This document shows positions 10,549 through 27,400 of a stretch of DNA of 64,000 bases, in pieces. Source of the DNA: an uncultured Flavobacteriales bacterium (GTDB lineage: Bacteria > Bacteroidota > Bacteroidia > Flavobacteriales_D > Crocinitomicaceae); contig CAJXJK010000002.1 of the NCBI GenBank assembly GCA_913054135.1, positions 124,001 to 188,000 of the forward strand, written 5' to 3'. How positions within the stretch are numbered: position 1 is the stretch's first letter; each line of letters starts with the position of its first letter. The notes under the pieces are model-generated. The model was given only the letters and a program-made list of their open reading frames with translations. It made no database searches and was not told the DNA's origin. The position numbers and the translations under genes were made by a program.

Positions 10549-13500
10549 TTATTTCTCTCGAATCAGATTGACATTGCCCTGTCCTTCAAATTCGGTTCCG
10601 TTAGTGGATAGCGCTTTGTAAGTATAGAAGTAGACACCATCCTTACATTCACTTCCGTTCTTGTCAGTTCCGTCCCACTGATCGTTAATATCATCATATT
10701 CAAAGACAGTGATTCCCCATCTGTTTACAATTACAGCTTCAAATTCTGTGATCGCCTTATTTGGGAAGAAGAAGAAATCATTGTTTCCGTCTGTTCCTGG
10801 TGTAAATACATTTGGTAATATCAACTTTGGTTGATCAAACACTACTATCACTTTACAAGTTGTATCTGAACATCCGTTTTTATTAAGTGCGACTAAACAA
10901 ACGTCATAGCTACCAGAATCTAAATAAGATCTATCAAACTCTTCATAATAATCTGTGCTCAATTCCCATCCGCCATTTGCTTGACCAAAATGCCAGAAGA
11001 AAGTAGTATCAGCATTTGGATTGTTTGGATTAGCAAAGTATAGTGACTGATTAACAAAGTGAGCATCTAACTGAGCTGTACCTTCACAAACAAGTGGGTC
11101 TAAGAACTGAGGAGAAGTTGTGTTAAACGCAGCCTCAGGGTTCAATGAATCAAGTTCAATAAATCCTTCTAATGTACATCCGTTAGCGTCTGTAACAGTT
11201 AATTTATATAGGCTAGGATTTAATCCTCCCCAAGTAGTATTTGTAGAAGTTTGTAGTGTGTAAACATTAAACCACTCGTAATCGTAATCTGGTGATCCGC
11301 CATTGGCAGCTCCATAAACAACTCCGTTACCTGATTGGTAATTGAAAACTCTACAATAAGCTGGGTCGTAATCAAATTCAGTAAATGCTAAAGCTGGCGG
11401 CTCATTAATTGTGAAATCAACAGTCTCTGAACATCCGTTCTCATCATTTATAAGTAAAGAATAAGTTCCTGCTCCAGCATCAGTAAATTGTGATGCTCCT
11501 ACTCCATTTCCACCAGGAGGTGCTGGATTCCAAAAGTAAGCTATCTCATTATAATCTCCTGTTGCATTGTAAACAGTATCGACATTAACAACTCCAGTCA
11601 AGTATCCGTTACAAAGTGGATCTGTGATTGTAATATCAAGTGCCATTTGGTCTGGCTCATCAATAAAGATAGAATCAACAAAAGTACAAACGTCATCAGT
11701 AATGTTTATGTAATACCATCCTGTCGTTAGGTTATTAGCTGTATTAGAATTCCCACTGTTTACTGCATTTCCTTGATCATCTGTTAAGGTGTAAGTAATA
11801 GCTCCCGCTCCACCTGAAGTATTGACAGTGAAAGATCCATCACTAAATCCAAAACAAGTTGGCTCGCTACCAAATGATACCATTGCACATGTACTAGAAA
11901 CTAAGATGTTTATACACTCAGTACTATCGCATCCGCCAACAGTTGCTGTATAACATACTTGCCAAAGACCATCTCCTGCAACAAGCGGATCAAATACTCC
12001 AGTTGTTGCATTGATACAAGCTCCACAGTCTGCAGACCATGTTCCTCCGCCAGGAGTTGCTGAAAGGTTTTGCGGACCATCTGCAGGCGAGTAAGGACCA
12101 GCTGGATTAATGTCTACATCAATAGGTGCTGGCTCGGCTACTGTAATAAAAGCCGAATCTTGACATCCGTTTTGATCGGTCACCACCAACCAGTAATCAT
12201 CACCATCTAAGCCAACAATGTCGGGATTAGTGGATCCATTACTCCACAAATAGTCATATCCTGGAGTTCCATCAGTTACTGTTGAAGTGACAGATCCATC
12301 TCCCCAATCATAACATGTAACATCAGTAATATTTGTTGCCAAATTTGGAGAATCAAATACTGTGATGTCCTCAGTAATGGTATCAGTAAAACATAAATAC
12401 TCAACTATTAATTCAACCGTGTAAGTTCCTTGGTCATCATAGGTATGTAAAGGATTCTGCTCTGCAGACCCTTCTCCATCTCCAAAATCCCAATCATAAG
12501 AAATAACGTTTCCACCAGAAGTAAATGGAGTGAATTGGATAGAATCTAAATCACATAGACCAGCAATCGAAGTATTGATATTCGTAAATGATAAACTATC
12601 GTCAATGGCGTTCACACGTGCACCTGCAGCATAAAAATAAGATTCTGGATTACCCATACCGTAAGCATAAGCTAAGAAACCACAACCAGTTGTAGTTAAA
12701 GTGTGAGATCCTGTTCCGGTTGCAAACAGTTTGTAAGAATATTCATCATCATAAGCTAAGGGAGTCCAGTTGACAATAGGAGCTGCATTGAATTGCATTG
12801 TTGAAGTATCTGTTGATCTCGTTACTACGTTCACATAATTAACAAGATTACTACCTCCTGATGCTGCGTAAAACGTAACAGTATCTAAATACATTTGCTC
12901 ATTTGAGTTCAAAACAATCATTGATGGATCACCATTTCCTGAACAAACACCTGTTGTCATTGTTTGAGTGACTGCACATGGCTTGTTAGATTCAATCATT
13001 ATTCCTTCATCAACATCTGAAAAATTGCCATCATAAACATCTCCAATGTTTAGTACTGGACCTGTAGGAACTCCGTCAACAGTGAATGTCGTTCCGTTTT
13101 CTTTTGCCACTACTCTATATGCATTATCATCTTGTTCAAGGGTTATGGTCAAAATATATTCTGATCCCCACGACTCGACTCCGTAAGCTTGTTCAAAGAG
13201 CGGATCAGCATTTTGATTACCGCAGGTTGTGAGGTAAGTCCATATGTGGCCATTGAAGACCGCAAACTTGTCGGTTCCATTGTCTGCAACAATTGTTGAA
13301 CCAGTAAGGTCATTAGCTGCGCCCGTTTGAGCTTGAACTTGATACACTTCATTTGGATCTAAATGAACAGCAATTGGAGTTCCGGCTGGAACACCACCTT
13401 CAGTTGTACAAGAAGGTATAATAGTTACATCACAAGGTGTGTTTCCTGCAACCACTATGAATTCTGATTGCCACCAGATTCCTGACTTCAACATTGTTGG

Positions 13501-13923
13501 GTAAGTTGTTACCATATAATCTGAAGAAAGGGCTGTTATTGGAAGACAGATTGAAGCTTCAGATCTCGCATTATGGAAAGTTGAAGCATAAACAGTTACT
13601 GGCACATCTGATGTGACATGAATTGCTCTTTCAATTACTGTTTCATTAATGGTAATATCTGCATCTGCCCCAACAAGTGTAACTGTTGTTACGACTCCAG
13701 GAACTACATTAAAATTTTGGCTAAAACCAGTTCCTGTTATCTCTACATTTCCGCTAGCATTTACACGACTAGAAATATTTATTTCAAATGTTGCATTTGC
13801 ATTGTCATAAACTTCAGGGAAGGCAACATAGAACTCTGTCCCTTCATTTGTGAGATTTTGAGAATACGATTCAATTGAGAATCCAAACAATGTTAGGACG
13901 GCAAAAATCAGCAGTTTTTTCAT
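10549..13923 (-). CDS. Giant secreted IgGFc-binding/PKD/SprB-repeat protein with gliding-type CHU_C tail
   Basis: An 1124-residue T9SS cargo. Residues 1-22 are a signal peptide ending SYSQ. Residues about 25-440 match the IgGFc_binding-type module (EFYVAFPEVYDNANA, then VPVTVYASTFHNARSEA). A PKD domain follows (ISYDWDFGDGEGSAEQ and HTYDDQGTYTVEL, about 480-535). Several SprB-like repeats come next (GTPGYDYLWSNGSTN; GSPDYDYEWFN; CxxS motifs). The last 95 residues are a gliding motility-associated C-terminal domain (LPNVFTPGTDGNNDFFF ... VYFYTYKALSTNGTEFEG). The protein is therefore expected to be secreted by T9SS and attached to the cell surface, acting in adhesion. It is flanked by its own terminator and has no co-transcribed partner. 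The binding target cannot be deduced. Confidence 0.9.
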   Translation of the reverse strand: MKKLLIFAVLTLFGFSIESYSQNLTNEGTEFYVAFPEVYDNANATFEINISSRVNASGNVEITGTGFSQNFNVVPGVVTTVTLVGADADITINETVIERAIHVTSDVPVTVYASTFHNARSEASICLPITALSSDYMVTTYPTMLKSGIWWQSEFIVVAGNTPCDVTIIPSCTTEGGVPAGTPIAVHLDPNEVYQVQAQTGAANDLTGSTIVADNGTDKFAVFNGHIWTYLTTCGNQNADPLFEQAYGVESWGSEYILTITLEQDDNAYRVVAKENGTTFTVDGVPTGPVLNIGDVYDGNFSDVDEGIMIESNKPCAVTQTMTTGVCSGNGDPSMIVLNSNEQMYLDTVTFYAASGGSNLVNYVNVVTRSTDTSTMQFNAAPIVNWTPLAYDDEYSYKLFATGTGSHTLTTTGCGFLAYAYGMGNPESYFYAAGARVNAIDDSLSFTNINTSIAGLCDLDSIQFTPFTSGGNVISYDWDFGDGEGSAEQNPLHTYDDQGTYTVELIVEYLCFTDTITEDITVFDSPNLATNITDVTCYDWGDGSVTSTVTDGTPGYDYLWSNGSTNPDIVGLDGDDYWLVVTDQNGCQDSAFITVAEPAPIDVDINPAGPYSPADGPQNLSATPGGGTWSADCGACINATTGVFDPLVAGDGLWQVCYTATVGGCDSTECINILVSSTCAMVSFGSEPTCFGFSDGSFTVNTSGGAGAITYTLTDDQGNAVNSGNSNTANNLTTGWYYINITDDVCTFVDSIFIDEPDQMALDITITDPLCNGYLTGVVNVDTVYNATGDYNEIAYFWNPAPPGGNGVGASQFTDAGAGTYSLLINDENGCSETVDFTINEPPALAFTEFDYDPAYCRVFNYQSGNGVVYGAANGGSPDYDYEWFNVYTLQTSTNTTWGGLNPSLYKLTVTDANGCTLEGFIELDSLNPEAAFNTTSPQFLDPLVCEGTAQLDAHFVNQSLYFANPNNPNADTTFFWHFGQANGGWELSTDYYEEFDRSYLDSGSYDVCLVALNKNGCSDTTCKVIVVFDQPKLILPNVFTPGTDGNNDFFFFPNKAITEFEAVIVNRWGITVFEYDDINDQWDGTDKNGSECKDGVYFYTYKALSTNGTEFEGQGNVNLIREK

Positions 13924-14033: not shown

Positions 14034-14193
14034 TTATAAGCGAACTCCTATAACGCAAACATGTTTCATGAAAAATTGAGACACTCATGACGATTCTGTC
14101 ATGACAGGTTCGACTTCGCTCAGTGTTGATGATGTCAATGCCTTCTAGTTCATTCGGCTAAAGCCTCACTCCTATAACGCAAACATCATCAAC
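14034..14193 (-). repeat. Duplicated C-terminal tail of the SpoIIE gene (copy A) plus intergenic repeat
   Basis: On the minus strand 14034-14060 encodes VCVIGVRL followed by a stop, the same last eight residues as the gene ending at 14158. The 19-base sequence ACTCCTATAACGCAAACAT occurs at 14044-14062 and again at 14168-14186. Between them lies a spacer also found after the neighbouring paralogue (see 15775-15913). An 11-base inverted repeat (GTTGATGATGT 14125-14135 / ACATCATCAAC 14183-14193) spans the gene end. This looks like a decayed remnant of a duplicated phosphatase gene. Confidence 0.7.
14085..14104. repeat. Hairpin insert TCATGAC-N6-GTCATGA present only in copy A
   Basis: Seven-base perfect inverted arms (14085-14091 and 14098-14104) around the loop GATTCT. 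The element sits in the spacer of copy A; the otherwise similar spacer of copy B lacks about 24 bases here. Confidence 0.55.
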
Positions 14194-15645
14194 CTGCTCA
14201 TAATCGCCTTTCCATTCTTCGAAAAACTTATCTAGAATAGCAGACTGATTTTGCAATGGTTGATCATTAGAAGAGATTAACTCATTTTTAAACGGCTTAT
14301 ACTTCAATTTTTTACCCTTAGTTCCCCCAAACTGATCTGCGAAACCATCAGTAAATAAATAGATAGAATCTTTTTCTTCTAACTGAAGATGATGTGTAGT
14401 GAATGGTTTTCTGAAATCAAATTGTCCAATTGGTTGTTTGTCAGGCTTGATCGATTCAAATTCTCCTCCGCTCTTGATGATGTAGAGAGCATTGTTGGCT
14501 CCGGCATATTCAATCTTTCTATTTTTGACGTCAATCTTACATAGACAAACATCCATTCCATCCTTAATGCCGTCAGGAGAAGTCGCGAATTTTTTGATAA
14601 CGATATCGGTTACTGCATCTAATATTTTACCCGGGTCAGTGATATTCGCATCATGGACCACATAGCTCAATGCATTTGAACAAATTACACTAACCATTGC
14701 ACCAGGAACACCATGACCTGTGCAATCGGCAACTGCCACATAAACATGTCCTTGAAACTCTTCTAAGAAATAGAAATCACCCGCGACTATATCTTTGGGT
14801 TTGAAGAAAACAAAACTTTCTGGAAATAGATTTTCAAAGTCTGTTAAAGGCGGAGGAATTGCAGACTGAATTTTTAAAGCATAGTTGATTGAATCAGTAA
14901 TGTCGGCATTCTTTTCTTTAATGATTGCAGCTTGAATTCTAGCCTGTTCTTTTCTCAGCTCTTCTTCTCTTAAGATTTTTCTGGTGTAAGGGATCAAGAA
15001 GACTGCCATCAGAATGATCACCCCGATTGCAATAAGAGTTTCGTTCAGGTATTCTCTTTGCACATCCTCAATAAATCCAGTAAATTCCACATCAGCCTCT
15101 AACAATGCCACTGTTTCACCTCTAGAATTCTTTATCGGATAAAATGCAGATAGCCATTCACCGTTTTCAGATTCGTACGAAGGAATACTTGCTCCGACAT
15201 CCATGCTGTCCAATAAAATTTGTGGATAGTTAACATAGCTATGCCTGAAATATGGCTCAGGATCAGAAGTAACTCCAAACTCAAAAAATGCCGAATCTTC
15301 ATTGAAAACCATTGTGTAAATAGGCTTTTTCAAACCATTCACTATCGCCGCATTCTCTAATTGACTTTGCAAATGATGATAGGTCATATTTTCATCATTC
15401 GTTTTGATGTTATCCTTTAGGATGTGATCTTCCATCATTTTTTGATGTTCATCACCATCAATTTGAGTTGCCACAGTAGCAACAATTGCTTCTAACCTAT
15501 CATATTGTCGAAGTTCTTGAAGATTGAGTTGAGAATAATAACCAAAGACAATGAAGAAACCTGTAATCAGAATGATACTAACGTAGATTATGAACATAAT
15601 CCTAGTCGCAACATTTTCTAATATTTTCTTGAACATTGTACTCAC
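14158..15645 (-). CDS. Membrane-bound sensor with SpoIIE/PP2C-type serine phosphatase domain
   Basis: A 495-residue protein. Membrane segments lie at about 16-36 and 203-220, with an extracytoplasmic sensor of about 165 residues between them; a HAMP is not obvious. A helical linker (225-260) leads to a SpoIIE/PP2C catalytic domain (about 265-495) with the metal-ligand motifs VAGDFYF (D290), VADCTGHGVPGA (D307), YLFTDGFADQFGG (D433) and the terminal VDDVCVIGV. Such enzymes dephosphorylate serine or threonine on regulators such as anti-anti-sigma factors; no partner is encoded nearby. It is the first of four complete paralogues in tandem-like arrangement. Input ligand is unknown. Confidence 0.88.
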   Translation of the reverse strand: MSTMFKKILENVATRIMFIIYVSIILITGFFIVFGYYSQLNLQELRQYDRLEAIVATVATQIDGDEHQKMMEDHILKDNIKTNDENMTYHHLQSQLENAAIVNGLKKPIYTMVFNEDSAFFEFGVTSDPEPYFRHSYVNYPQILLDSMDVGASIPSYESENGEWLSAFYPIKNSRGETVALLEADVEFTGFIEDVQREYLNETLIAIGVIILMAVFLIPYTRKILREEELRKEQARIQAAIIKEKNADITDSINYALKIQSAIPPPLTDFENLFPESFVFFKPKDIVAGDFYFLEEFQGHVYVAVADCTGHGVPGAMVSVICSNALSYVVHDANITDPGKILDAVTDIVIKKFATSPDGIKDGMDVCLCKIDVKNRKIEYAGANNALYIIKSGGEFESIKPDKQPIGQFDFRKPFTTHHLQLEEKDSIYLFTDGFADQFGGTKGKKLKYKPFKNELISSNDQPLQNQSAILDKFFEEWKGDYEQVDDVCVIGVRL

Positions 15646-15774
15646 TTGGGTGAATTTAAGGAATTCTAATTTAAAATACAGATTTGATTTGGACTGTCTC
15701 TCAAAATATACTTAAAGTGCATCTCTCAATTATCAGCTTGCGGACCAATATTTAGGGAAATAAATAGGTAAGTC

Positions 15775-15913
15775 GCTTACAGCCTCACTCCTATAACGCA
15801 AACATGTTTCATGATAAGTTGAGACACTTCGACTTCGCTCAGTGTTGATGATGTCAATGCTTTCTAGTTCATTTGGCTTACAGCCTCACTCCTATAACGC
15901 AAACATCATCAAC
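15775..15913 (-). repeat. Duplicated SpoIIE tail (copy B): 31-base perfect direct repeat
   Basis: A 31-base sequence at 15775-15805 is repeated exactly at 15876-15906, 101 bases apart. On the minus strand both copies encode VCVIGVRL and a stop (the first copy at 15777-15803). The spacer carries CGACTTCGCTCAGTGTTGATGATG, shared with copy A, and an 11-base inverted repeat (15844-15854 / 15903-15913). It is downstream of the second paralogue exactly as copy A is downstream of the first. Confidence 0.8.
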
Positions 15914-17872
15914 CTGCTCGTGATCGCCTTTCCAATCAAGAAAGGCTTTCTTGAGTTCTATATTTTGATTTTCGGCTGAAAGATTTGAAGTGTCCACCAG
16001 TTTTTGTTTGAATGGCTTGTATTTCATTTTTTTTCCTTTCTCTCCCCCAAATTGATCGGCATATCCATCAGTGAACAAATAGAATATATCATCCTTTTCA
16101 AGTTGTAAACTCTTAGTTTCAAAAGGAGATCTATTCAAGTACTTTCCTACTGGCTGTTTATTGGCTTTGATTTCTTGAATTTCTTCGCCTCCATTTTTAA
16201 GATAATACAAACTGTTGTTGGCTCCGGCATATGTAACTTGTCTAGAGTTCAAATTAATTGAACAAAGAGCGATATCCATTCCGTCCTTCACCTCTTTCTC
16301 ACTTTTTTCAAAGGTTTCAATTACCAAATCAGTGACTTTATCCAAAATTTTCCCTGGATCTTTCAATCCAAATTCTCTAACGGCTCTGTTCAATGCGTTA
16401 TGACAAACAACTGAAACGAGCGCTCCTGGAACACCATGACCAGTGCAATCAGCTGCTGCCAACAAGACTGTCTCTTCTTGAACCTCCATCCAATAAAAAT
16501 CACCAGCAACAATATCTTTTGGAAGATACAAGACAAAATTATTGGGAAGAACAGAGTCAATAGTTGATTTGACCGGGAGGATAGCTTCTTGAAGTCTCTT
16601 AGCGTAAGAAATACTATCAGTAATTTCTTTGTTCTTCTCCTCTACAATATGCTTTTGTAATTCGATTTGTTTTTTTGCACTTCTAACTCGAAACAATACG
16701 AAGACAATTGCAATAATTCCCAATCCGGCAAAAACCAATGCAATCAATAAATACTGATTATTCTCTTCTTTTAAAGCAATGTTAGCTTCCTCTTCTTTTA
16801 TTTTGGCCTCTTGCGCGTCATTGACTGACTTTAGCATTTCTAACTCTTTTTCTTTTTGTTCTGATTCGAACTTAGCAGTTAGCTCACGTGTGGTTTCACT
16901 ATTTCTTTCGTCATACAAATCTCTTCTCAAAATAATCAATTCGGAAGCCATTGAATAAGCCATTTTATAGTCCCCGATATTGGCATAGGATTCAGCCAAA
17001 CCTAAATATGCTTCTTCTTTATTAAATCTAACCTGATTTGAATCGCAATAAACGAGGGCTAAATTTAGATTATCGATTGCTTTGTAATTTTCTCCCTTTC
17101 GTTGATACATTCTCCCAATGATTGTATAATTAAAGGCTATGGATTCAAAATCTCTCAGTTTAAGATTGATGGCCAAGGCCTGTTCAAGGTATTCATTGGC
17201 TTCATCATACCTTTCAATATCTTTGTAATACAGACCAATGTTTGCCATTGTTGAAGCCGCCGAAGTCAAGTTGTTAAGAGCTAACTTAATTTCAAGCGAT
17301 TGCAACCAATACTCTATACCAATGTCATATTTAGAATCCATCATATGAACAATTCCTATGTTGTTATAAAGTCTCGCAATACCAATAGAATCATTTTCCT
17401 CTTCTTCAATGGATAGACAAAATTGATATTCTTCCATTGCTTTATCCAGTTCGCCATTAGATCTATGGATGTTCCCCAATAAGACATGAGCTCTTACTAT
17501 TGCTTCAGGGTTCTCTGATTTTTCTGAATATTCTACTGATTCTATAGCGTACTTGGCCGCTTTAGTCGGATCCATGTATTGATACAATTGTCCTAATTGC
17601 GTTGAGATTCCGCATAATAATTCATATTCGGTGGAATGTTTCAAATGCTCATTGGCTTTGTCAAAAAAGAAAATGGAAGAATCTGTCTGGGTCAAAAAAT
17701 ATGAATCGCCAAGGTAAATGAAAGCTTCAGCCCTCTTGACCGGACTTTGTTCAGATTCAAGAACTTTGAAAACGCTATCTCTATTATACACTTCTCTTTC
17801 TTGGGCAGATGCAAACTGAATAACCAAGATGGAAATCAAAAAACAGAAGATATGAGATCGCATATAACTCAT
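15878..17872 (-). CDS. TPR-repeat membrane protein with SpoIIE/PP2C-type phosphatase domain
   Basis: A 664-residue protein starting MSYMRSHIFCF. A signal peptide (about 1-24, ending FASAQ) is followed by a tetratricopeptide-repeat superhelix (about 30-315) with repeated NIGIVHMMDSKYDIGIEY and YNYTIIGRMYQRKGENYKAI-like units, a coiled coil, one membrane helix (LLIALVFAGLGIIAIVFVLF) and a cytoplasmic PP2C domain containing VAGDFYWM, AADCTGHGVPGA, YLFTDGYADQFGG and VDDVCVIGV. The TPR part faces the periplasm and likely senses a protein partner. The start overlaps the stop of the upstream gene by one base (TAATG), so translation is coupled to the Cache-like paralogue; the ATG 24 bases earlier is less likely. 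Confidence 0.9.
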   Translation of the reverse strand: MSYMRSHIFCFLISILVIQFASAQEREVYNRDSVFKVLESEQSPVKRAEAFIYLGDSYFLTQTDSSIFFFDKANEHLKHSTEYELLCGISTQLGQLYQYMDPTKAAKYAIESVEYSEKSENPEAIVRAHVLLGNIHRSNGELDKAMEEYQFCLSIEEEENDSIGIARLYNNIGIVHMMDSKYDIGIEYWLQSLEIKLALNNLTSAASTMANIGLYYKDIERYDEANEYLEQALAINLKLRDFESIAFNYTIIGRMYQRKGENYKAIDNLNLALVYCDSNQVRFNKEEAYLGLAESYANIGDYKMAYSMASELIILRRDLYDERNSETTRELTAKFESEQKEKELEMLKSVNDAQEAKIKEEEANIALKEENNQYLLIALVFAGLGIIAIVFVLFRVRSAKKQIELQKHIVEEKNKEITDSISYAKRLQEAILPVKSTIDSVLPNNFVLYLPKDIVAGDFYWMEVQEETVLLAAADCTGHGVPGALVSVVCHNALNRAVREFGLKDPGKILDKVTDLVIETFEKSEKEVKDGMDIALCSINLNSRQVTYAGANNSLYYLKNGGEEIQEIKANKQPVGKYLNRSPFETKSLQLEKDDIFYLFTDGYADQFGGEKGKKMKYKPFKQKLVDTSNLSAENQNIELKKAFLDWKGDHEQVDDVCVIGVRL

Positions 17873-19854
17873 TAAACTTCCACACCAATCACACAAACAT
17901 CATCTAATTGCTCGAATTCGCCCATCCAATCTTCGAATTCTTTTTTCAAGATTTCTCTTTGGGAGTGAATTGGTTCTGCACTAATTTTGAGCAGTAAATT
18001 CTTAAAGGCTTTACTCTTTAGCTTCTTACCTCTTTCCCCACCAAATTGGTCAGGGAATCCATCACTTGAAAGGTAAATTTTATCACCTTTTTGAACCTTA
18101 ATTTTATGGTATGTGAATTTCTCTCTAAACTCAAACTTACCAACAGGTTGTTTATCGGCTTTTAATTCATAAAGCGAATACCCTTCTAATTCTAATTTCA
18201 ACTCTAAGCCTTCGAAGTCTCCATTTCCTCTCCTAATAATCCAAAGAGGATTATTTGCACCAGCATATTCTAGTTGCATTGTATCCATGGTTAATCCAAC
18301 CAGAGAAATATCCATACCATCTTTTACTTCGTGGTCGCTCCTTTCAAATGTTCTGATAACCAAGTCGGTGACTTTATCAAGAATTTCGGCTGGTTGATGC
18401 ATACCAAACTCTCTCACCACTCTATTCAAAGCATTGTGACAAACCACAGAAACCATTGCTCCTGGCACTCCATGCCCTGTGCAATCTGCTGCTGCGAAGA
18501 GCACTTCATTGTCAACCACATCCATCCAATAAAAATCTCCCGCTACAATATCTTTTGGAAGGTATAAAACGAATGATTTAGGAAGTTTTTCATTCCAATA
18601 AGAGTCAGGCGGAAGAATTGCTGTTTGAATTCGTTTAGCGTAATTTATGGAATCTAATATCTCGTGGTTTTGTTCTTCAATTTCGTGCTTTGCCAGTAAT
18701 ATTTCTTCATTTGCATTTTTAAGCAAGCCATTTTTTTCTTGGATCTCTGCTTTTTGTGAACGCAGCAAATCATTTGACTTGTGCTTCTCGCGGTACGCTC
18801 TAAGAATGTATATAGTGAAAAACAATACCAAGACAAACCCTATGATGATGATATTTTCTGAGTGAATCACTGAGCCCACGAAATCTCTTTCAGGAACCGC
18901 CACCCCAACTAAGAGCTTATCTTCATCTGATATTTTATACTCTTCAATTGAGCCCCACCAATCTTCTCCGCCAGAAGCGAATGTGAAGCATGAATCTTTA
19001 TCTTCAAGGTCATTCCAAATTGAAACTGTTTTTTCTAAAGGTTCGTTCCCTAATTCAAGGTAGGTTTTGAGAACATTATCTCTCATGGCCTCAGGGGAAT
19101 CAAATTCTGAATGAGCAGGTAATCCAATTACTCTTTCATCATCAGTCAAAACAAATACAAACCCTTTTTCTGAAATTTCCATTTCAGTGGTGAATTTGGA
19201 TATGTCATTTAATAGAACATCAAAGGCTGCTACCACCTGATTAGAATCCTCATCTTCCCATCTTGTTGAAATTGTTATACCTGGTTCTTTAGTGGTTGAG
19301 AATGTGTATGGCTTTGTCCAGTTAATATGCATTTCATCATGTGCCATAGCACTTTGATACCATGGTCGTTCTCTTGGGTCATAAAGGATATCCTTTTTAT
19401 TTCTGAAGTGAGGCTCTATCTCTTCCTCATCACTCCAAAACAATTGATCACTAAGTGAGTCTTTTGATCCTTTATGAGTCATTCTAAACATCCAGGCCGT
19501 ATCCAAATCAAGAATTAAAAACTCATCTCCTTCTGAAGTTGCCATTAGTACTGAAGAGAGTTGACGTTTGTGCTCAACTAAAGGTCTGAACTCGGCATTT
19601 AGATGAACATAGTTTTGATAATCATAAGGTTGAACAGAATGTTCTTGGGCGGTAATAAGCATATCCTCTTTTAGAGGTGCAAAGAAGTTTTCAAGCTCGA
19701 GGTCGGTTCTCAATAAAGACTTTTCAACCATGTCTTTGCTGAGATGATCTACCGTCTTGTTCAAATCCATTAAAATGAAAACAAATATTCCAATGATTCC
19801 TAAGAGAAGGAAATAAATGGCATTCTTATAAAGTATTTTTAAAAACTGTTTCAA
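17872..19854 (-). CDS. Cache-like sensor with SpoIIE/PP2C-type phosphatase domain
   Basis: A 660-residue protein. Membrane helices at about 11-30 and 332-352 enclose a large periplasmic region (about 31-330) that resembles a double Cache sensor (DPRERPWYQSAMA and WTKPYTFSTTKEPGIT are Cache-type phrases). A coiled coil (about 360-410) leads to a PP2C domain with VAGDFYWMD, AADCTGHGVPGAM, LSSDGFPDQFGG and LDDVCVIGV. Cache domains bind small metabolites such as amino or carboxylic acids, so this member probably senses a nutrient; the ligand is unknown. It is transcribed with the TPR paralogue downstream. Confidence 0.9.
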   Translation of the reverse strand: MKQFLKILYKNAIYFLLLGIIGIFVFILMDLNKTVDHLSKDMVEKSLLRTDLELENFFAPLKEDMLITAQEHSVQPYDYQNYVHLNAEFRPLVEHKRQLSSVLMATSEGDEFLILDLDTAWMFRMTHKGSKDSLSDQLFWSDEEEIEPHFRNKKDILYDPRERPWYQSAMAHDEMHINWTKPYTFSTTKEPGITISTRWEDEDSNQVVAAFDVLLNDISKFTTEMEISEKGFVFVLTDDERVIGLPAHSEFDSPEAMRDNVLKTYLELGNEPLEKTVSIWNDLEDKDSCFTFASGGEDWWGSIEEYKISDEDKLLVGVAVPERDFVGSVIHSENIIIIGFVLVLFFTIYILRAYREKHKSNDLLRSQKAEIQEKNGLLKNANEEILLAKHEIEEQNHEILDSINYAKRIQTAILPPDSYWNEKLPKSFVLYLPKDIVAGDFYWMDVVDNEVLFAAADCTGHGVPGAMVSVVCHNALNRVVREFGMHQPAEILDKVTDLVIRTFERSDHEVKDGMDISLVGLTMDTMQLEYAGANNPLWIIRRGNGDFEGLELKLELEGYSLYELKADKQPVGKFEFREKFTYHKIKVQKGDKIYLSSDGFPDQFGGERGKKLKSKAFKNLLLKISAEPIHSQREILKKEFEDWMGEFEQLDDVCVIGVEV

Positions 19855-19935
19855 TAGATAGAATATAGATTATTCTAAATGTAATTAAATTAAGGATTTA
19901 AAGACTAAATAGCTCAAAATAATTCACCTAGTTCT

Positions 19936-20172
19936 TTACGCTTTGACTCCTATAACACAAACATCATCAATTTGCTCAACATCCCCTTTCCAATCTTCAA
20001 ACACCTTTGTAATATGCTTTAATTGATTGCTCATAGTGGAGTCATGCTGTGACAAAAACATCTTTTTGAATGGTTTGTACTTAAACTTCTTCCAATTAGG
20101 ACCGCCAAATTGATCAGGATATCCATCAGAGAAAAGGTAAATGGCATCACCTTTTGATAAGTGAGTTTTTTT
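19936..20172 (-). pseudogene. Decapitated SpoIIE/PP2C phosphatase paralogue
   Basis: On the minus strand these bases encode 78 residues that match the C-terminus of the neighbouring phosphatases: GDAIYLFSDGYPDQFGG, KFKYKPFKKMF, FEDWKGDVEQ and DDVCVIGVKA before a TAA stop. Everything upstream (sensor, linker and the first two metal motifs) is missing, and the next upstream codon is a stop produced within a 9-base A/T homopolymer (20166-20174). It has no start and cannot make a phosphatase. It is the clearest evidence that this array has lost members. Confidence 0.88.
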
Positions 20173-20331
20173 TTAGAGTGAAGGGTTGATATAATTAAAA
20201 AGGATTTCAATGCGTGGGCACAATGAATGACTAAGTTAGTGATTTCTGCTCATTGAACTTCAATTTTAGCCTTCATCCAAAAGTGTGGTTACTTTAACAT
20301 ATTTTGTAACAGATTTTGAAGGAGCAATTCC

Positions 20332-20339
20332 TATATTTG
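20332..20339 (+). promoter_or_regulatory. -7 promoter element (TATATTTG) for the ABC transporter operon
   Basis: Perfect TAnnTTTG match 18 bases before the ATG at 20358. An upstream in-frame ATG at 20316 would lie ahead of this element, so 20358 is chosen. Confidence 0.6.
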
Positions 20340-20357
20340 ACTTTCAATTTTCAACAT

Positions 20358-21119
20358 ATGATTAAAGTAGAAAATCTTGTAAAAGAGTTCAAACTTTCAA
20401 AGAAGCAACAAAAAGAGAACAACACCTCAGAGAAGGTGGCCAAGGCAGTGAATGGCGTCTCTTTTGAATGCAAAGCCGGTAGAATTTTCTCTTTACTAGG
20501 ACCAAATGGTGCAGGTAAAACGACGACACTCAGAATGATTTCAACAATTGTTAAGCCAACTTCTGGTAGTATAATAGTAGACGGAATTGATGTCATCAAA
20601 GAGCCTCAAGATGCTCGAGCTAAAATCGGGTTTCTTACTGGATCAACTGGTCTTTATGAGCGACTTACGCCAAATGAAGTATTGAAATACTTTGCTGATT
20701 TAAATGACATGGACAAAGCTACCTTTGAAAAAAGGAGAGATTACTATTATGACCTCTTGGATATGCATGATTTTAAATCAAAGAAAATTGGCCAAATGTC
20801 TACTGGAATGAAGCAAAAGGTCTCTATTACTAGAACTATGATTCATGACCCAAATGTTGTTGTTTTTGATGAGCCTACATCCGGTTTAGATGTCATTACT
20901 GCAGAGAACATTATAAAGCTCATTAATGACTGTAAAAACGAAGGCAAGACAGTGATTTTTTCATCTCACATCATGTCAGAAGTTGATCTATTATGTGATG
21001 ACCTGGCGATAATCAACAAAGGAAAACTTCTCTACTCAGGTACAATGGAAGACTTCAGAACAAACATGCAAACCGACACCTTAACTGGTGAATTTATTAG
21101 AATCGTAAACGAGAACTAA
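20358..21119 (+). CDS. ABC transporter ATP-binding protein, NatA-like
   Basis: A 253-residue ATPase of an ABC-2 type exporter. Walker A is LLGPNGAGKTTTLRMI, the signature is GQMSTGMKQKVSI and Walker B is VVVFDEPTSGLD, followed by the H-loop SSHIMSEV. The closest functional type by sequence flavour is the Na+ exporter ATPase NatA, but drug or lipid export is possible. The ATG at 20358 gives the normal MIKVENLVKEF start. The permease gene follows after one base, so they form an operon. This pair sits within the SpoIIE array on the opposite strand. Confidence 0.9.
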   Translation: MIKVENLVKEFKLSKKQQKENNTSEKVAKAVNGVSFECKAGRIFSLLGPNGAGKTTTLRMISTIVKPTSGSIIVDGIDVIKEPQDARAKIGFLTGSTGLYERLTPNEVLKYFADLNDMDKATFEKRRDYYYDLLDMHDFKSKKIGQMSTGMKQKVSITRTMIHDPNVVVFDEPTSGLDVITAENIIKLINDCKNEGKTVIFSSHIMSEVDLLCDDLAIINKGKLLYSGTMEDFRTNMQTDTLTGEFIRIVNEN

Positions 21120-21120
21120 G

Positions 21121-22302
21121 ATGAAGAAGATTATAATTATAGCAAAGAAGGAGTTTCTCGATTTATTAAGAGATAAGAGAACATTGGTGAGGATGATTTT
21201 GATCCCACTATTGGTATTCCCTGTCATTATTAATTTGGTGACTATGGTGCAAAGTTCGGCTGCCGAAAAAGAAGCTGCTAAAGAAGTTAACGTTGGATAC
21301 GTCTTGAACGGTCAGTCTTCAACTATGATTGACAATTTGGCAATGATTCCTAATTACAATTTCTATGAATTTTCAGATTCTACTGTCTTGCGAGATGAGA
21401 TTTTAGGAGATTCAGTTACTGTTGGACTTCATTTCGCTTCGAATTTTGACAATGATTACAATGAAGGTAAAACTCCTGAATTGTCTTTGTTTTATGAAGG
21501 GGTTAACCAAGAAGATTTAGGTAAAGTAAAATTTCTTTTGACCATGCAAGATTCTTTGTACACTGACATGAGAATGCAATCAATAGACAAAGATTACGGA
21601 TTTATTGAGCCATTTAGTATTGTGAACAGAGATATTGGTGATGACAATGAGCTTATAGCTAAATATGCTGGGGGGATGTTACCATATTTCTTTTTAGCCT
21701 TTTGTTTCATGGGATGTATGATTCCCGCCATTGACATGTTTGCAGGAGAGAAAGAGCGTGGTACAATTGAGACCTTGCTAACTACCCCAGTAAAGAGACT
21801 TCAAATTGTATTTGGGAAAATGATTGTTATTACAACTTTTGGTTTATTGAGTGCTTCGCTTGCTCTGCTAGGACTATATTTCAGTTTAAATTTTATGGGG
21901 ATGGAAGGTGACTTCATGGACACCATAAAAGGCATGCTTTCTCCTGGATTGATAGGAACGCTTTATATATTATTGGTTCCACTTGCGATTTTCTTTGCCG
22001 GAATAATGATTCCTGTTTCTGTTTACTCTAGATCTTTTAAAGAAGCTCAAAGTATCCTAACTCCATTAAACATTTTGGTTGTTTTACCTGCGATCTTTGG
22101 ATTTTTACCAGGAGTTGAATTAGACTACACGACTTCGTTTATTCCTATATTAAATGTTGTTTTGGCTTGTAAATCTCTAATTGGAGGACATGCTGATATG
22201 ATATTAATAGGGATTACATTCTTCTCACTAATTATATTGGCAGGATTATCTGTCTTTATTTCTGTGAAGCAATTTGGTAAAGAAGGAAATGTATTGAGGT
22301 AG
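21121..22302 (+). CDS. ABC-2 type transporter permease, NatB-like
   Basis: A 393-residue inner-membrane protein: first helix at about 20-42 (TLVRMILIPLLVFPVIINL), a periplasmic domain of about 130 residues, then five or more helices from about residue 180. The cytoplasmic coupling segment AGEKERGTIETLLTTPVKR is the hallmark of NatB/ABC-2 permeases. It presumably works with the ATPase encoded one base upstream; the exported substrate (Na+ in the namesake system) is inferred only. The gene converges with the TPR phosphatase gene, with 35 bases between. Confidence 0.88.
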   Translation: MKKIIIIAKKEFLDLLRDKRTLVRMILIPLLVFPVIINLVTMVQSSAAEKEAAKEVNVGYVLNGQSSTMIDNLAMIPNYNFYEFSDSTVLRDEILGDSVTVGLHFASNFDNDYNEGKTPELSLFYEGVNQEDLGKVKFLLTMQDSLYTDMRMQSIDKDYGFIEPFSIVNRDIGDDNELIAKYAGGMLPYFFLAFCFMGCMIPAIDMFAGEKERGTIETLLTTPVKRLQIVFGKMIVITTFGLLSASLALLGLYFSLNFMGMEGDFMDTIKGMLSPGLIGTLYILLVPLAIFFAGIMIPVSVYSRSFKEAQSILTPLNILVVLPAIFGFLPGVELDYTTSFIPILNVVLACKSLIGGHADMILIGITFFSLIILAGLSVFISVKQFGKEGNVLR

Positions 22303-22337
22303 GAGAACATAGTGCATGCGACAAGAAGACTCTAATC

Positions 22338-24476
22338 TCAGGGCTTGAATCCTATTACACAGATATCATCTAGCTGTTCAAAATCACCCATCCAATTTAC
22401 TATAAATTGATCCAAACTCTTGTGCTGTTCACTTAAAGTTTGATTCTGACTATCTAAGAGTAACTTCTTTAATGTTTTATATTTGAGTTTCTTTCCTTTT
22501 CCTCCACCGAATTGATCAGCATATCCATCTGTAAAAATATAGAATGTGTCTTGATCAGAATAAGAGTAATCTTTCGTAGTAAAATCAAAGCTTTTGGCAT
22601 ATAATCCAATAGGCTGTTTGTCTCCTTTTATATCTAACAAACAATTTTCATTCACTTCCATATTAGAGATTTCATTATCTCTCACTTGAGTCAAAGGCTT
22701 CACAATCCACAAAGGGTTATTTGCCCCTGAGAACGAAACCAATTTCTGTTTTTTATCTATAACGCAGAGAGAAATATCCATTCCATCTTTGACGTCTTCC
22801 CCACTTCTTGCGAATGTAGCAACAACAATATCTCTCGTCTTATCTAGAATCTCATTCGGATTTTTACAATCAAACTCATTCACCACTCTATTCAAGGCAT
22901 TTGCGCAAACTACTGAAACCATTGCTCCTGGGACGCCATGACCTGTACAATCTGCAGCAGCAATAAAGACTAGGTCGTCTTTTTGCTCAAACCAATAAAA
23001 ATCGCCAGAAACCACATCTTTTGGTTTAAACAATACAAAAGCCTCTTTCAAATTGTCATGCAAGGCAGATATCGGAGGTAAAATCGCACCTTGCAATCTT
23101 TTAGCATAATTGATTGAATCAGTAATCTGCTTATTCTTTTCATCCACGATTTCTTTCTGATCCTGAATCCTTTGATTTTTGTCAGCCAAAACACGGTTGT
23201 TTAAATTTTTAGATCTAATTGATTTGAAAAGAAAGAAAAGTAATCCAAGCATGAGCAGACCTCCAGCAATTGCGATTGTAATAATGGTTTTTTGATTACT
23301 GATCTTACGTTCATCCTCTAAAGATTTTTGTGCGAATTCTGTTTGAATTTTTAAGCTATCAGAAACAGATTTCAATTGAAGCTCATTTCTAACCAACTCA
23401 CTTTTTAAATTGTCTGATTGATTTTGATGTTGATCTAAAGTCTGTAGTCTTATAAATTCACGGTAGGCATTCGCAGATTCAAAATAATCATTGCCTTTAT
23501 AATAATATGTGGCGAGAGCTAAATACGAACTAAAAACAGTTTCAGCCAAGACTGGATCTTTTTGAAGTTCTTTTAAATCTTTAGCAAATTGTCTCAACGT
23601 ATTTGAAGGCAAGTCATACTGCCCTCTCAATAAAGCACTTGTCAAAATTATTTGCCCTCGAGGGTCGTGACTCTCTGTTGCAATATCAAGTGCATTCAAT
23701 AAATAACGTCTAGCAATCATTGAATCCTGCTCTATTTCTGCCAATGTTTGAAGTGTTCTTGTTAATCCATAACCATATCTTTCTCTTTCAAAAATTCTCT
23801 TCGCTTTGCTCAGATAGAAATAGGCGCTATCGTCTTTCCCAAGCTTCTCATACAAGTCACCAATACCTTGATATGAAATAGCCATCCCTAAAGAATCATC
23901 TACTTTCTTATCATATTCGAGACTTTTGAGTTGATAATTCAATGACTTTTCGTAATCATTCAATACTTGATAAACGGATGCCACATTTGTGAAGGCATAT
24001 GCCTTCCCTCTCTCTGCTTGATCTTTTGCTGTGGAGTCAGTTACAGCAAAGGCGATTTTTTCATTAAGTACAATTGACTTTTGATGATACTCTAAAGATT
24101 GAGCTAAATCATCAATATCAAAATAAGCATTGCCAAGATTTCCATAAGCATTCGCTATTTTTTGATAGGCATTGGCCTTTTTATAATGCTCCAACGATTC
24201 GAAAAAGCAATCTCGGCTTTTCTTGTATTTCGATATGTCTTGGTAATACCATCCCTGATATAAAGAATAATCACCAAGTAACATTGGGTCGGAGATTTGA
24301 TCGACAAGAGTTTCTGCAGAATCGAGGTATTGTTTAGCTACGTAATTGTCAACGTACTCCCATTTTTGAAAATTCTCAAGATGTTGGGTAAACTTTTCAA
24401 CTTGCCCAATACTTTCGCTCGCCGAAAGTAGAATCGCGGCCAATATTAAAAGCTTAAAGATGAAGTTTTTACGCAT
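22338..24476 (-). CDS. TPR-repeat protein with SpoIIE/PP2C-type phosphatase domain
   Basis: A 712-residue protein. The start at MRKNFIFKLLILAA gives a clean signal peptide (ending SIGQ) and avoids the overlap with icmF that an upstream in-frame start would create. TPR units span about 30-350 (KIANAYGNLGNAYFDIDDLAQSL-type repeats, shortened here), then a coiled coil, one membrane helix (TIITIAIAGGLLMLGLLFFL) and a PP2C domain containing VSGDFYWFE, AADCTGHGVPGA, YIFTDGYADQFGG and LDDICVIGF. It starts 10 bases after icmF ends on the same strand and may be co-transcribed. It is the outlying member of the array, separated from the others by the ABC transporter. Confidence 0.9.
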   Translation of the reverse strand: MRKNFIFKLLILAAILLSASESIGQVEKFTQHLENFQKWEYVDNYVAKQYLDSAETLVDQISDPMLLGDYSLYQGWYYQDISKYKKSRDCFFESLEHYKKANAYQKIANAYGNLGNAYFDIDDLAQSLEYHQKSIVLNEKIAFAVTDSTAKDQAERGKAYAFTNVASVYQVLNDYEKSLNYQLKSLEYDKKVDDSLGMAISYQGIGDLYEKLGKDDSAYFYLSKAKRIFERERYGYGLTRTLQTLAEIEQDSMIARRYLLNALDIATESHDPRGQIILTSALLRGQYDLPSNTLRQFAKDLKELQKDPVLAETVFSSYLALATYYYKGNDYFESANAYREFIRLQTLDQHQNQSDNLKSELVRNELQLKSVSDSLKIQTEFAQKSLEDERKISNQKTIITIAIAGGLLMLGLLFFLFKSIRSKNLNNRVLADKNQRIQDQKEIVDEKNKQITDSINYAKRLQGAILPPISALHDNLKEAFVLFKPKDVVSGDFYWFEQKDDLVFIAAADCTGHGVPGAMVSVVCANALNRVVNEFDCKNPNEILDKTRDIVVATFARSGEDVKDGMDISLCVIDKKQKLVSFSGANNPLWIVKPLTQVRDNEISNMEVNENCLLDIKGDKQPIGLYAKSFDFTTKDYSYSDQDTFYIFTDGYADQFGGGKGKKLKYKTLKKLLLDSQNQTLSEQHKSLDQFIVNWMGDFEQLDDICVIGFKP

Positions 24477-24486
24477 TGCGCGCAAT

Positions 24487-27400
24487 TTACATATTCCTTC
24501 TGTATTGTCCACCAACTTCAAACAAGGCATCTGTAATTTGTCCTAACGAGCATACTTTTGCAGCATCCATGAGCTCTTCAAAAATATTTTTGTTTTGAAT
24601 AGCCGCTTCTTGAATTCTCACTAAAGCTTTTGAAGTTGCATCTTCGTTCGCTTTATGAAGTCCGTTCAGCATTGAGATTTGATATTGTTTTTCAGATTCC
24701 TCAGCTCTAATTACTTCTTTAGGTAGCACTGTTGGTGACCCTTTTGAGCTTAAGAAAGTATTCACCCCAATAATTGGGAATTCTCCTGTATGCTTCAAAG
24801 TTTCGTAGTACAATGATTCTTCTTGAATTTTTGAACGTTGGTACATGGTCTCCATAGCACCTAACACTCCTCCTCTTTCAGTAATTCTATCAAATTCAGT
24901 AAGAACAGCTTCTTCAACTAAATCAGTCAACTCTTCAATAATGAAAGCTCCTTGAATTGGATTTTCATTTTTAGCTAATCCTAACTCTCTATTGATGATT
25001 AATTGAATTGCCATTGCTCTTCTTACAGACTCTTCTGTTGGAGTTGTGATTGCTTCGTCATAAGCGTTTGTATGCAATGAATTACAGTTGTCATAAATCG
25101 CATACAGAGCTTGTAAAGTTGTTCTAATATCATTGAAGTCAATCTCTTGAGCATGCAAAGACCTACCAGATGTTTGGATATGATACTTTAACATTTGTGC
25201 TCTCGCATTTGCTCCATATTTCTTAGCCAATGCCTTAGACCAAATTCTTCTAGCAACTCTACCGATCACAGCATACTCTGGATCGATACCGTTTGAAAAG
25301 AAGAACGATAAATTCGGTCCAAATTTATTGATATCCATTCCTCTAGATAAGTAGTACTCAACATAAGTGAATCCATTTGCTAGAGTAAATGCCAATTGAG
25401 AAATTGGGTTTGCCCCCGCCTCTGCAATATGATATCCAGAAATAGAAACAGAATAGAAGTTTCTTACCCCTTTTTCAATAAAGTACTCTTGAACATCTCC
25501 CATTAATCTGAGTGCAAACTCAGTTGAGAATATACAAGTGTTTTGTGCTTGATCTTCCTTAAGGATATCGGCCTGAACAGTCCCCCTAACCTTGGTTAAG
25601 GTCTCAGCTTTGATTTTTGCATAAACATCTGCTGGCAATACTTGATCACCTGTTAAACCTAAGAGCATTAAACCTAAACCATCATTACCTTCTGGTAAAT
25701 CTCCCTGGTAAGATGGGCGTGTGAGATTGTTTGAATCATACACTTCTTTGTACTTCTTCTCTACCTCAGATTCTAAGCCATTTTCTTTAATGTACAATTC
25801 ACACTCCTGATCAATTGCGGCATTCATAAAGAAACCTAACAACATTGGCGCAGGACCATTAATCGTCATTGATACAGATGTTTTTGGATCAGATAATTTA
25901 AAGCCTGAATATAGTTTCTTAGCGTCATCTAAACAGCAAATTGAAACACCTGAATTCCCAATTTTCCCGTAGATATCTGGGCGCTCATTTGGATCATTAC
26001 CGTAAAGTGTAACCGAGTCAAATGCTGTTGACAACCTCTTAGCCGGCATTCCTAAAGACACATAATGAAACCTTCTGTTCGTTCTCTCTGGTCCACCTTC
26101 ACCAGCAAACATTCTTGTTGGATCCTCTCCCTCTCTTTTGAATGGGAATAAACCGGCCGTATAAGGGAATTCACCAGGAACGTTTTCTTGCAATGACCAT
26201 CTCAACACGTCTCCCCAACCAGTATACTTCGGTAAAGCAACTTTAGGAATTTGTAAATGTGATAATGATTCGGAATGCGTATCAATTGAAAGCTCTTTAT
26301 CTCTCACTTTAAATTTATAAACTGGCTCTTTGTATCGTTGAACCTTATCAGCCCAGCCTTCTACAATTAACCAATTCTTAGGGTCTAAGTTTAGCTTAAC
26401 TTGTTCAAAAGTCTCTTGCAAGCCTTTGATCAATCTATCTTTATCTTCAATTTCAGAATCTTTTAACGTTTCAATTGAAGAGTTTAATCCATGTAATTTG
26501 TCAGCTACCTCAACCTGAGAATCAACCCACTTGTCGTATCCTCTATTATTCTCAGAAATCTCTGACAGGTATCTTGTTCTAGCAGGTGGAATAACAAATA
26601 TCTTCTCAGACATTTCAGCTGTTATCTCAAAAGTAGATTTTAAATCAGCAGATGTTTTCTCTACCAACTTATCCATGATTGCTTTGTAAAGCGTATTCAT
26701 TCCTGGATCATTGAATTGAGAAGCAATAGTTCCATAAACTGGAATGTTCGCATCATCTTCATGCCATAATTCATGATTACGCTTGTACTGCTTTTTCACA
26801 TCACGAACAGCATCTAATGCCCCACGTTTGTCAAATTTATTTAAGGCAACAATGTCGGCAAAATCTAACATGTCAATTTTCTCTAACTGTGTTGCAGCTC
26901 CAAACTCTGGAGTCATCACATATAGAGATGCATCAGAGTGATCAAGAATCTCAGTATCAGATTGGCCAATACCTGAGGTCTCTAAAATGATTAAATCGAA
27001 GTTTGCTGCCTTCAGTATTTCTAAGGCCTCAGAAACATGCTTAGACAATGCCAAATTTGATTGACGTGTTGCTAATGAACGCATGTAAACTCTCTTATTT
27101 TTGATAGAGTTCATTCTAATTCTATCTCCCAATAAAGCTCCACCCGTCTTTTTCTTTGAAGGATCAACTGAAACAATCGCAATTTCTTTTTCAGGAAAAT
27201 CAATTAGGAATCTTCTCACCAATTCATCTACCAATGATGACTTCCCTGCTCCACCTGTACCGGTGATTCCTAATATAGGAGTATCAACTTTTGCGGCCAA
27301 GTCATGAACCTTGTTTAACTCATCTTTACTTTCTTCAGGATAATTCTCAGCTGCAGAAATTAAGCGAGCAATGTCAACCGGGTTTTTATCAGAAAGATGG

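Follow-up and report, generated by a model that had tools for sequence, protein, structure and literature searches.

SiaA-type sensor phosphatases in an uncultured Flavobacteriales bacterium and their probable place in a SiaABC-like switch

The window analysed here, a stretch of 64,000 nucleotides (positions 124001-188000 of contig C2) from the 4.05 Mb, 98.5% complete assembly of an uncultured Flavobacteriales bacterium of the Crocinitomicaceae, holds four complete genes, W1 to W4, each of which joins an N-terminal sensor to a C-terminal SpoIIE/PP2C phosphatase domain. These domains are of the SiaA type and not of the RsbU/SpoIIE type, because sequence, predicted structure and two additional active-site aspartates agree on that assignment, and we consider it probable that the four proteins feed signals into a SiaABC-like switch, in which they would act on SiaC. 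In the Pseudomonas switch, as PMC7647112 and PMC8457831 describe it, SiaC is phosphorylated at T68 by SiaB and dephosphorylated by SiaA, and unphosphorylated SiaC activates the diguanylate cyclase SiaD. The four genes are laid out as follows (TM, transmembrane stretch; aa, amino acids).

W1, 14158..15645, minus strand: membrane phosphatase of 495 aa with hydrophobic stretch 16-34, an extracytoplasmic region of ~165 residues, hydrophobic stretch 200-218, helical linker and SiaA-type PP2C domain.
W2, 15878..17896, minus strand: signal/TM, TPR region, TM 383-401, linker, SiaA-type PP2C domain.
W3, 17872..19854, minus strand: TM 13-31, dCache-like extracytoplasmic sensor, TM 335-353, linker, SiaA-type PP2C domain.
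W4, 22338..24530, minus strand: signal/TM, TPR region, TM 416-434, linker, SiaA-type PP2C domain.

An earlier, sequence-only reading of this DNA had described four complete SpoIIE/PP2C genes with a common catalytic tail, and this description is borne out: the Pfam SpoIIE model matches all of them (80.7 bits for W1, 78.4 for W2, 62.0 for W3 and 53.3 for W4, with a cut-off of 25) and the motifs are as it gave them, apart from small departures in W4 (VSGDFY and DDICVIG). The family label that it attached, RsbU/SpoIIE, has to be replaced. The best NCBIfam model for W1-W4 is SiaA, at 167-200 bits over the C-terminal part only; the SiaA equivalog NF038263 asks for a whole-protein score above 700 bits, which none of the four reaches, so that they are not SiaA itself. 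Compared with the sequences of the PDB, W2 matched 23 entries, the sole phosphatase among them being SiaA-PP2C (6k4e, E 4.6e-39) and the others TPR proteins. A predicted model of the W2 domain (residues 385-672, built from the 26-row alignment A2, with a predicted local distance difference test score, pLDDT, of 95.9) is likewise nearest to 6k4e, both by Foldseek (E 3.6e-26 versus 4.8e-12 for the next protein) and by VIA (Z 34.3, 1.5 Å over 244 residues, versus 24.1 for the next protein), this comparison of folds covering W2 only.

At the level of single residues, the SiaA positions D457, D474, G477, D600, G601 and D653, mapped by alignment, are conserved in W1-W4, and the catalytic aspartates, whose integrity the sequence-only reading had made a point of, are intact in all four as far as a residue-level check goes. 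D534 and D604, which support a third metal in SiaA (active-site and third-metal residue names follow PMC7647112), are both conserved in W1-W4 as well. Across the genome, an equivalent of D534 occurs in 49/49 SiaA-type proteins and one of D604 in 48/49, with Glu in the remaining one, whereas the RsbU-type protein of this same genome (C4:290478, that is, contig C4 at position 290478) has neither. W1-W4 share with the Bacillus RsbU/SpoIIE switch the PP2C fold, the metal aspartates and, going by PMC12143880, the logic of the linker; they differ from it in lower structural and sequence similarity, in the D534/D604-type residues that the RsbU-type protein of this genome lacks and in a weaker scaling with STAS proteins, to which we return below.

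The second observation that the earlier reading made correctly is the diversity of the sensors. W1 has a simple one, with no Pfam match other than SpoIIE; W3 has a Cache-like one, which scores 40.3 bits against the Pfam model dCache_1, under the 45-bit cut-off; and the TPR regions of W2 and W4 match nine and five Pfam TPR models, respectively. Each protein carries two hydrophobic stretches, one near the N-terminus and the other with its end 64-86 residues ahead of the GDFY motif, and since they flank the sensor, the sensors of W1-W4 are probably periplasmic. The four are part of a far larger set: the genome has 51 SpoIIE matches, made up of 49 full SiaA-type proteins, the RsbU-type protein already mentioned (149.5 bits for SpoIIE) and a fragment in the window, W5. 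Among the 49, TPR_12 is found in 25, the propeller model Reg_prop in 10 and Y_Y_Y in 10, and the dCache_1, 7TMR-DISM, GAF and PAS models in two proteins each.

Partner genes are absent from the neighbourhood, as the earlier reading had also noticed, profile searches of the genome giving no match to SiaC, DUF6272, HATPase_c_2 or STAS within the window. Elsewhere in the genome we find 14 SiaC-family proteins, one of which matches the solved Pseudomonas SiaC with E 1.3e-18, and six SiaB-like DUF6272 domains in four open reading frames (ORFs), two of these being double-domain; the boxes E..QN...H and KG..GLG are invariant across the four. The position equivalent to T68 is Thr in eight of the SiaC proteins, Ser in five and Ile in one, so that 13/14 carry Thr/Ser there. 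The genome-wide search that the sequence-only reading had proposed for kinases and STAS proteins yields one strong RsbW-like kinase match (C3:234006) and two single-domain STAS proteins (C4:281963 and C21:5197); STAS numbers correlate with those of the phosphatases less strongly than SiaC and SiaB numbers do. The genome further contains six Pkinase matches, five of them clustered on contig C1. This cluster of five Hanks-type kinase domains spans C1:24775-40262, and a similar kinase group lies on contig C24 of genome G102; separately, two genomes of the same family have a Pkinase match and a SiaC gene no more than ~2 kb apart (at G026:C11:30.7-32.7 kb and at G091:C12:318.0-320.5 kb).

What ties the phosphatases to SiaC and SiaB is, in the first place, the coupling of their copy numbers. 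Among 120 genomes of the order, taking rho on match counts per genome, the number of SpoIIE matches (median 5; maxima 51 in the present genome and, counted as first-look candidates that were not all scored, 57 in the same-genus G100) correlates with SiaC at 0.89, with SiaB at 0.80 and with STAS at 0.42. Averaged by genus, the values are 0.89, 0.73 and 0.39 in the same order, and the partial correlations given genome size are 0.87, 0.76 and 0.36, as compared with 0.06 for Hanks kinases. The coupling holds inside families f1, f3 and f9 (SiaC 0.90, 0.75 and 0.69; SiaB 0.90, 0.70 and 0.72); in family f4, with eight genomes, SiaC is constant and the SiaB value of 0.26 is not significant. Genomes with at least two SpoIIE matches carry DUF6272 in 97/97 cases and SiaC in 95/97, and 19/23 of those with fewer than two are without DUF6272. 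Where a genome has just one SpoIIE match, as 21 of those sampled do, that match is always of the RsbU type (125-147 bits, frames of ~400-436 aa). STAS numbers range from 0 to 6 in the sampled genomes while SpoIIE spans 0 to ~50.

Gene linkage points in the same direction. A four-row SiaB alignment, used as query, matched at least 549 loci, of which we took the best 80; almost all of these carry a Bacteroidota label and one is Chlorobiota. Among them, the closest named relatives of the SiaB gene on contig C17 of the present genome come from two metagenome-assembled genomes (MAGs), one of Bacteroidia (72%) and one of Crocinitomicaceae (67%). SiaC lies less than 500 bp from SiaB in 71/80 of these loci and a SiaA-type phosphatase less than 3 kb away in 45/80, the density of phosphatases falling from 1.94 per 10 kb at distances of up to 1.5 kb from SiaB to 0.14-0.33 past 3 kb. 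Some SiaA-type phosphatase is present in 52 loci, and in 30/52 the nearest one lies downstream, on the opposite strand, at a distance of no more than 1.5 kb. In the genome under study the C17 and C1 clusters have a layout in common, a phosphatase placed tail-to-tail with siaC and a double-domain siaB, and on contig C7 one siaC is immediately upstream of a phosphatase. The coupling of copy numbers and the SiaB-SiaC linkage in other Bacteroidota therefore make the SiaC family the likely distant target of the window phosphatases, even if the linkage supports a partnership at the level of the subfamily more than a role of the four window genes themselves. The expectation of several inputs converging on a distant target is thereby upheld in outline, as the partners are encoded elsewhere and 49 phosphatases face 14 SiaC proteins and four SiaB-like ORFs; on the other hand, the STAS/RsbW type of partner for which it had proposed a search is less well supported than the SiaC/SiaB type, and the candidate substrates number 14 instead of one.

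A number of observations weigh against a SiaC-directed role for W1-W4. None of the four is clustered with siaB or siaC, the nearest SiaB on the same contig being ~20 kb and the nearest SiaC ~67 kb past the window edge, and within the genome the proximity of SiaC loci to phosphatases is modest (3/12 at no more than 1 kb, p 0.017; 4/12 at no more than 5 kb, p 0.06). The phosphatases that do adjoin SiaB and SiaC, on C17 and C1, fall outside the 25-member clade to which the window proteins belong (support 91/81). Among the 77 phosphatase ORFs that neighbour SiaB elsewhere, the best match in this genome lies in the C17/C1 pair for 37 and in the window clade for 16; moreover, the 80 loci were selected as the top hits of a query headed by one tandem SiaB and do not form a random sample. 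The position of SiaA R652, for which a phosphate-holding role was proposed from simulation (PMC7647112), is Val or Leu in W1-W4. The copy-number coupling is not without exceptions either, since 2/97 genomes with two or more SpoIIE matches lack SiaC and 10/23 with fewer than two nevertheless match SiaC or SiaB; and STAS number also follows that of SpoIIE, albeit less strongly.

The last point bears on the classical alternative, in which W1-W4 would be phosphatases of the RsbU/SpoIIE type and would belong to a STAS/RsbW partner switch, with release of an alternative sigma factor as its outcome. Their match to the Pfam SpoIIE model, the strong RsbW-like kinase and the two single-domain STAS proteins are all compatible with such a switch, yet the genome already has a separate RsbU-type protein, of the same type as that found in all 21 genomes with one SpoIIE match, and the window domains are nearer to SiaA in sequence, structure and residues; taken together with STAS numbers that stay at 0-6 as SpoIIE reaches ~50, this renders the alternative decidedly unlikely. 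That the phosphatases might instead counter Hanks-type Ser/Thr kinases on many unrelated proteins is hardly credible: Pkinase matches do exist in this genome, with their cluster on C1, but G100, which has the same four-gene array along with its 57 first-look SpoIIE candidates, is without any Pkinase match, and the partial correlation with Hanks kinases, given genome size, is 0.06.

It may also be supposed that each phosphatase has a substrate of its own, neither SiaC nor STAS, and that the correlation with SiaC and SiaB simply mirrors genomes rich in signalling. The lack of a SiaC or SiaB neighbour for W1-W4, the small number of SiaC loci (four of 12) within 5 kb of a phosphatase and the extent to which the catalytic domains of W1-W4 differ from each other (40-50% of positions) would fit this idea. 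The correlation, however, persists under control for genome size and inside families f1, f3 and f9, and in other genomes SiaB and SiaC are directly linked to SiaA-type phosphatases, so that we rate substrates of this kind as rather unlikely.

In the SiaABC-like arrangement that we favour, the periplasmic sensor, whether simple, dCache-like or TPR, would signal through the membrane helix and the helical linker to the PP2C domain, which is probably dimeric; linker coiled-coils are described in PMC12143880 as activating dimers of PPM phosphatases for diverse sensors. The active phosphatase would then remove the phosphate from the Thr/Ser of at least one SiaC-family switch protein, the same residue that SiaB-family kinases would phosphorylate, and dephosphorylated SiaC would bind and switch an effector. 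The layer that has been amplified is that of the sensor-phosphatases, 49 of them against 14 SiaC paralogues and four SiaB-like ORFs. To our knowledge, cyclic di-GMP (c-di-GMP) is the sole output demonstrated for the SiaABC switch. No GGDEF match is found in this genome, whose assembly is nearly complete, and a SiaD-like diguanylate cyclase is therefore unlikely as the effector; among the 120 genomes of the order GGDEF is matched in three and exceeds the cut-off in one. The final output is thus probably different from that known in Pseudomonas. We give roughly even chances to the wider proposition that Bacteroidota possess a large Ser/Thr phosphorylation network in which dozens of SiaA-type phosphatases with periplasmic sensors converge on a handful of SiaC proteins and are opposed by few SiaB kinases, with an output other than c-di-GMP.

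One candidate for the replacement output is a TPR class III nucleotide cyclase (Guanylate_cyc, 188 bits) whose gene directly follows the SiaC gene C6:50837 (region C6:50.8-52.6 kb), and which could possibly be under SiaC control in the place of SiaD. As a general output the class III cyclase was rejected, for it occurs within 3 kb of only 1/54 SiaC genes examined; near SiaB, at 3.5-4.6 kb, it is seen in 7/80 loci, which makes it no more than a lead. Pairs of a LytTR regulator and a histidine kinase, which adjoin SiaC in 11/51 loci, were likewise discarded as a switched output, because the phosphosite of the neighbouring SiaC is Ile/Val in 11/11 and this makes them poor candidates. One SiaC lineage stands beside OmpH/DUF4924 genes; there the T68 equivalent is Ile/Val in 18/18, versus 4/36 of other SiaC proteins, so that its members are not switchable at that position and may be a fixed form.

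The likeness to SiaABCD of P. aeruginosa (SiaA PP2C, SiaB kinase, SiaC/DUF1987 switch, SiaD cyclase) thus extends to the sequence, fold and third-metal aspartates of the phosphatase domain, to the combination of a membrane sensor with a C-terminal phosphatase, to a genome that encodes SiaB- and SiaC-family proteins and to the linkage of such genes with SiaA-type phosphatases in other Bacteroidota. The differences are as follows: there are 49 phosphatases here versus one, and their sensors include TPR, propeller and dCache-like ones; W1-W4 lie apart from SiaB and SiaC; two of the four SiaB ORFs have two domains; R652 is not conserved; and, with no GGDEF match, there is no SiaD. PMC8457831 already remarks that DUF1987 occurs widely and could modulate proteins in its neighbourhood. 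The association of varied sensors, a helical linker and one catalytic domain recalls the sensor/helix/output toolkit (signaling helix, PMC1592074; coiled-coil linkers, PMC12143880), from which the present case departs in its scale within a single genome and in its SiaA-type output domain. Campylobacterota PP2C/STAS-kinase modules, as PMC9239204 presents them, resemble it in that a periplasmic-sensor phosphatase feeds a small switch protein, and differ in their proposed output, c-di-GMP turnover. Among the matches listed in a search of the open-licence PMC literature, none dealt with a SiaABC network in Bacteroidota or with an expansion of SpoIIE there.

Were this reading to hold, a very numerous class of sensors in these genomes would have been filed under SpoIIE/RsbU with the wrong partners and its targets should be sought in the SiaC family, genes that look like orphans would become a testable network, and the SiaABC switch would be separated from c-di-GMP. 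A network of this sort would parallel two-component systems, but with a phosphatase as its sensor and a protein phosphorylated on Thr/Ser as its switch.

As for the history of the array, the gene order icmF, W4, W3, W2, W1 and a PKD-protein gene is the same in the window and in G100, and the array therefore predates the split of these two same-genus species. Identities between the orthologues, given for sensor and catalytic parts, are 57/60% for W1, 47/70% for W2, 67/79% for W3 and 37/58% for W4, the sensor parts being the more divergent. In G033, of another genus, a relative of W1 (46%) is the sole SpoIIE gene seen between icmF and the flank gene of window 5056-6669, and no SpoIIE gene is seen in ~14-15 kb on the array side of icmF in G019, G103 and G052. 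The expansion by local duplication that had been suggested from the sequence is plausible, and the domain tree neither shows nor rejects it: W1-W4 lie within the poorly resolved 25-member clade, 10/48 inner branches of the tree are starred, and approximately unbiased (AU) tests on 43 rows reject neither a clade of all four (p 0.57) nor one of W1-W3 (p 0.88). Two further features stand between W3 and W4, neither of which was seen at the syntenic place in G100.

W5 fragment, 19939..20172, minus strand: final 78 residues of a fifth phosphatase, with DGYPDQFGG ... DDVCVIG.
ABC exporter pair, 20316..22302, plus strand: ATPase (20316-21119) and ABC-2 permease (21121-22302).

The W5 fragment, whose SpoIIE match spans 19942-20169, has no upstream part and is a probable remnant gene. 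Its identity is 57.7% to C3:259105 and 53.8, 53.8 and 51.3% to W1, W2 and W3; not being closest to its neighbours, it does not point to a recent local duplication. The exporter pair, on the opposite strand, splits W4 from W1-W3 and is not thought to be part of the phosphatase system.

Some gene boundaries call for comment. The 3' end of W3 overlaps the listed W2 start by 25 bp, and an in-frame Met 3' of the listed TTG is the likelier start of W2. The listed start of W4 (24530) gives a 44-bp overlap with the 3' end of icmF; the in-frame ATG at 24476, which opens a signal-peptide-like N-terminus, removes the overlap and is as good a start. Just downstream of the intact icmF of G019, a short match to the IcmF C-terminus (G019:C13:16989-17093, 57% over 35 residues, one in-frame stop) is perhaps the remnant of a duplication. 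Downstream of the array, window 10549-13923 encodes a large protein of the IgGFc_binding/PKD/SprB kind that carries a CHU_C type IX secretion tail and whose gene is found at the same place in G100 with 70% identity.

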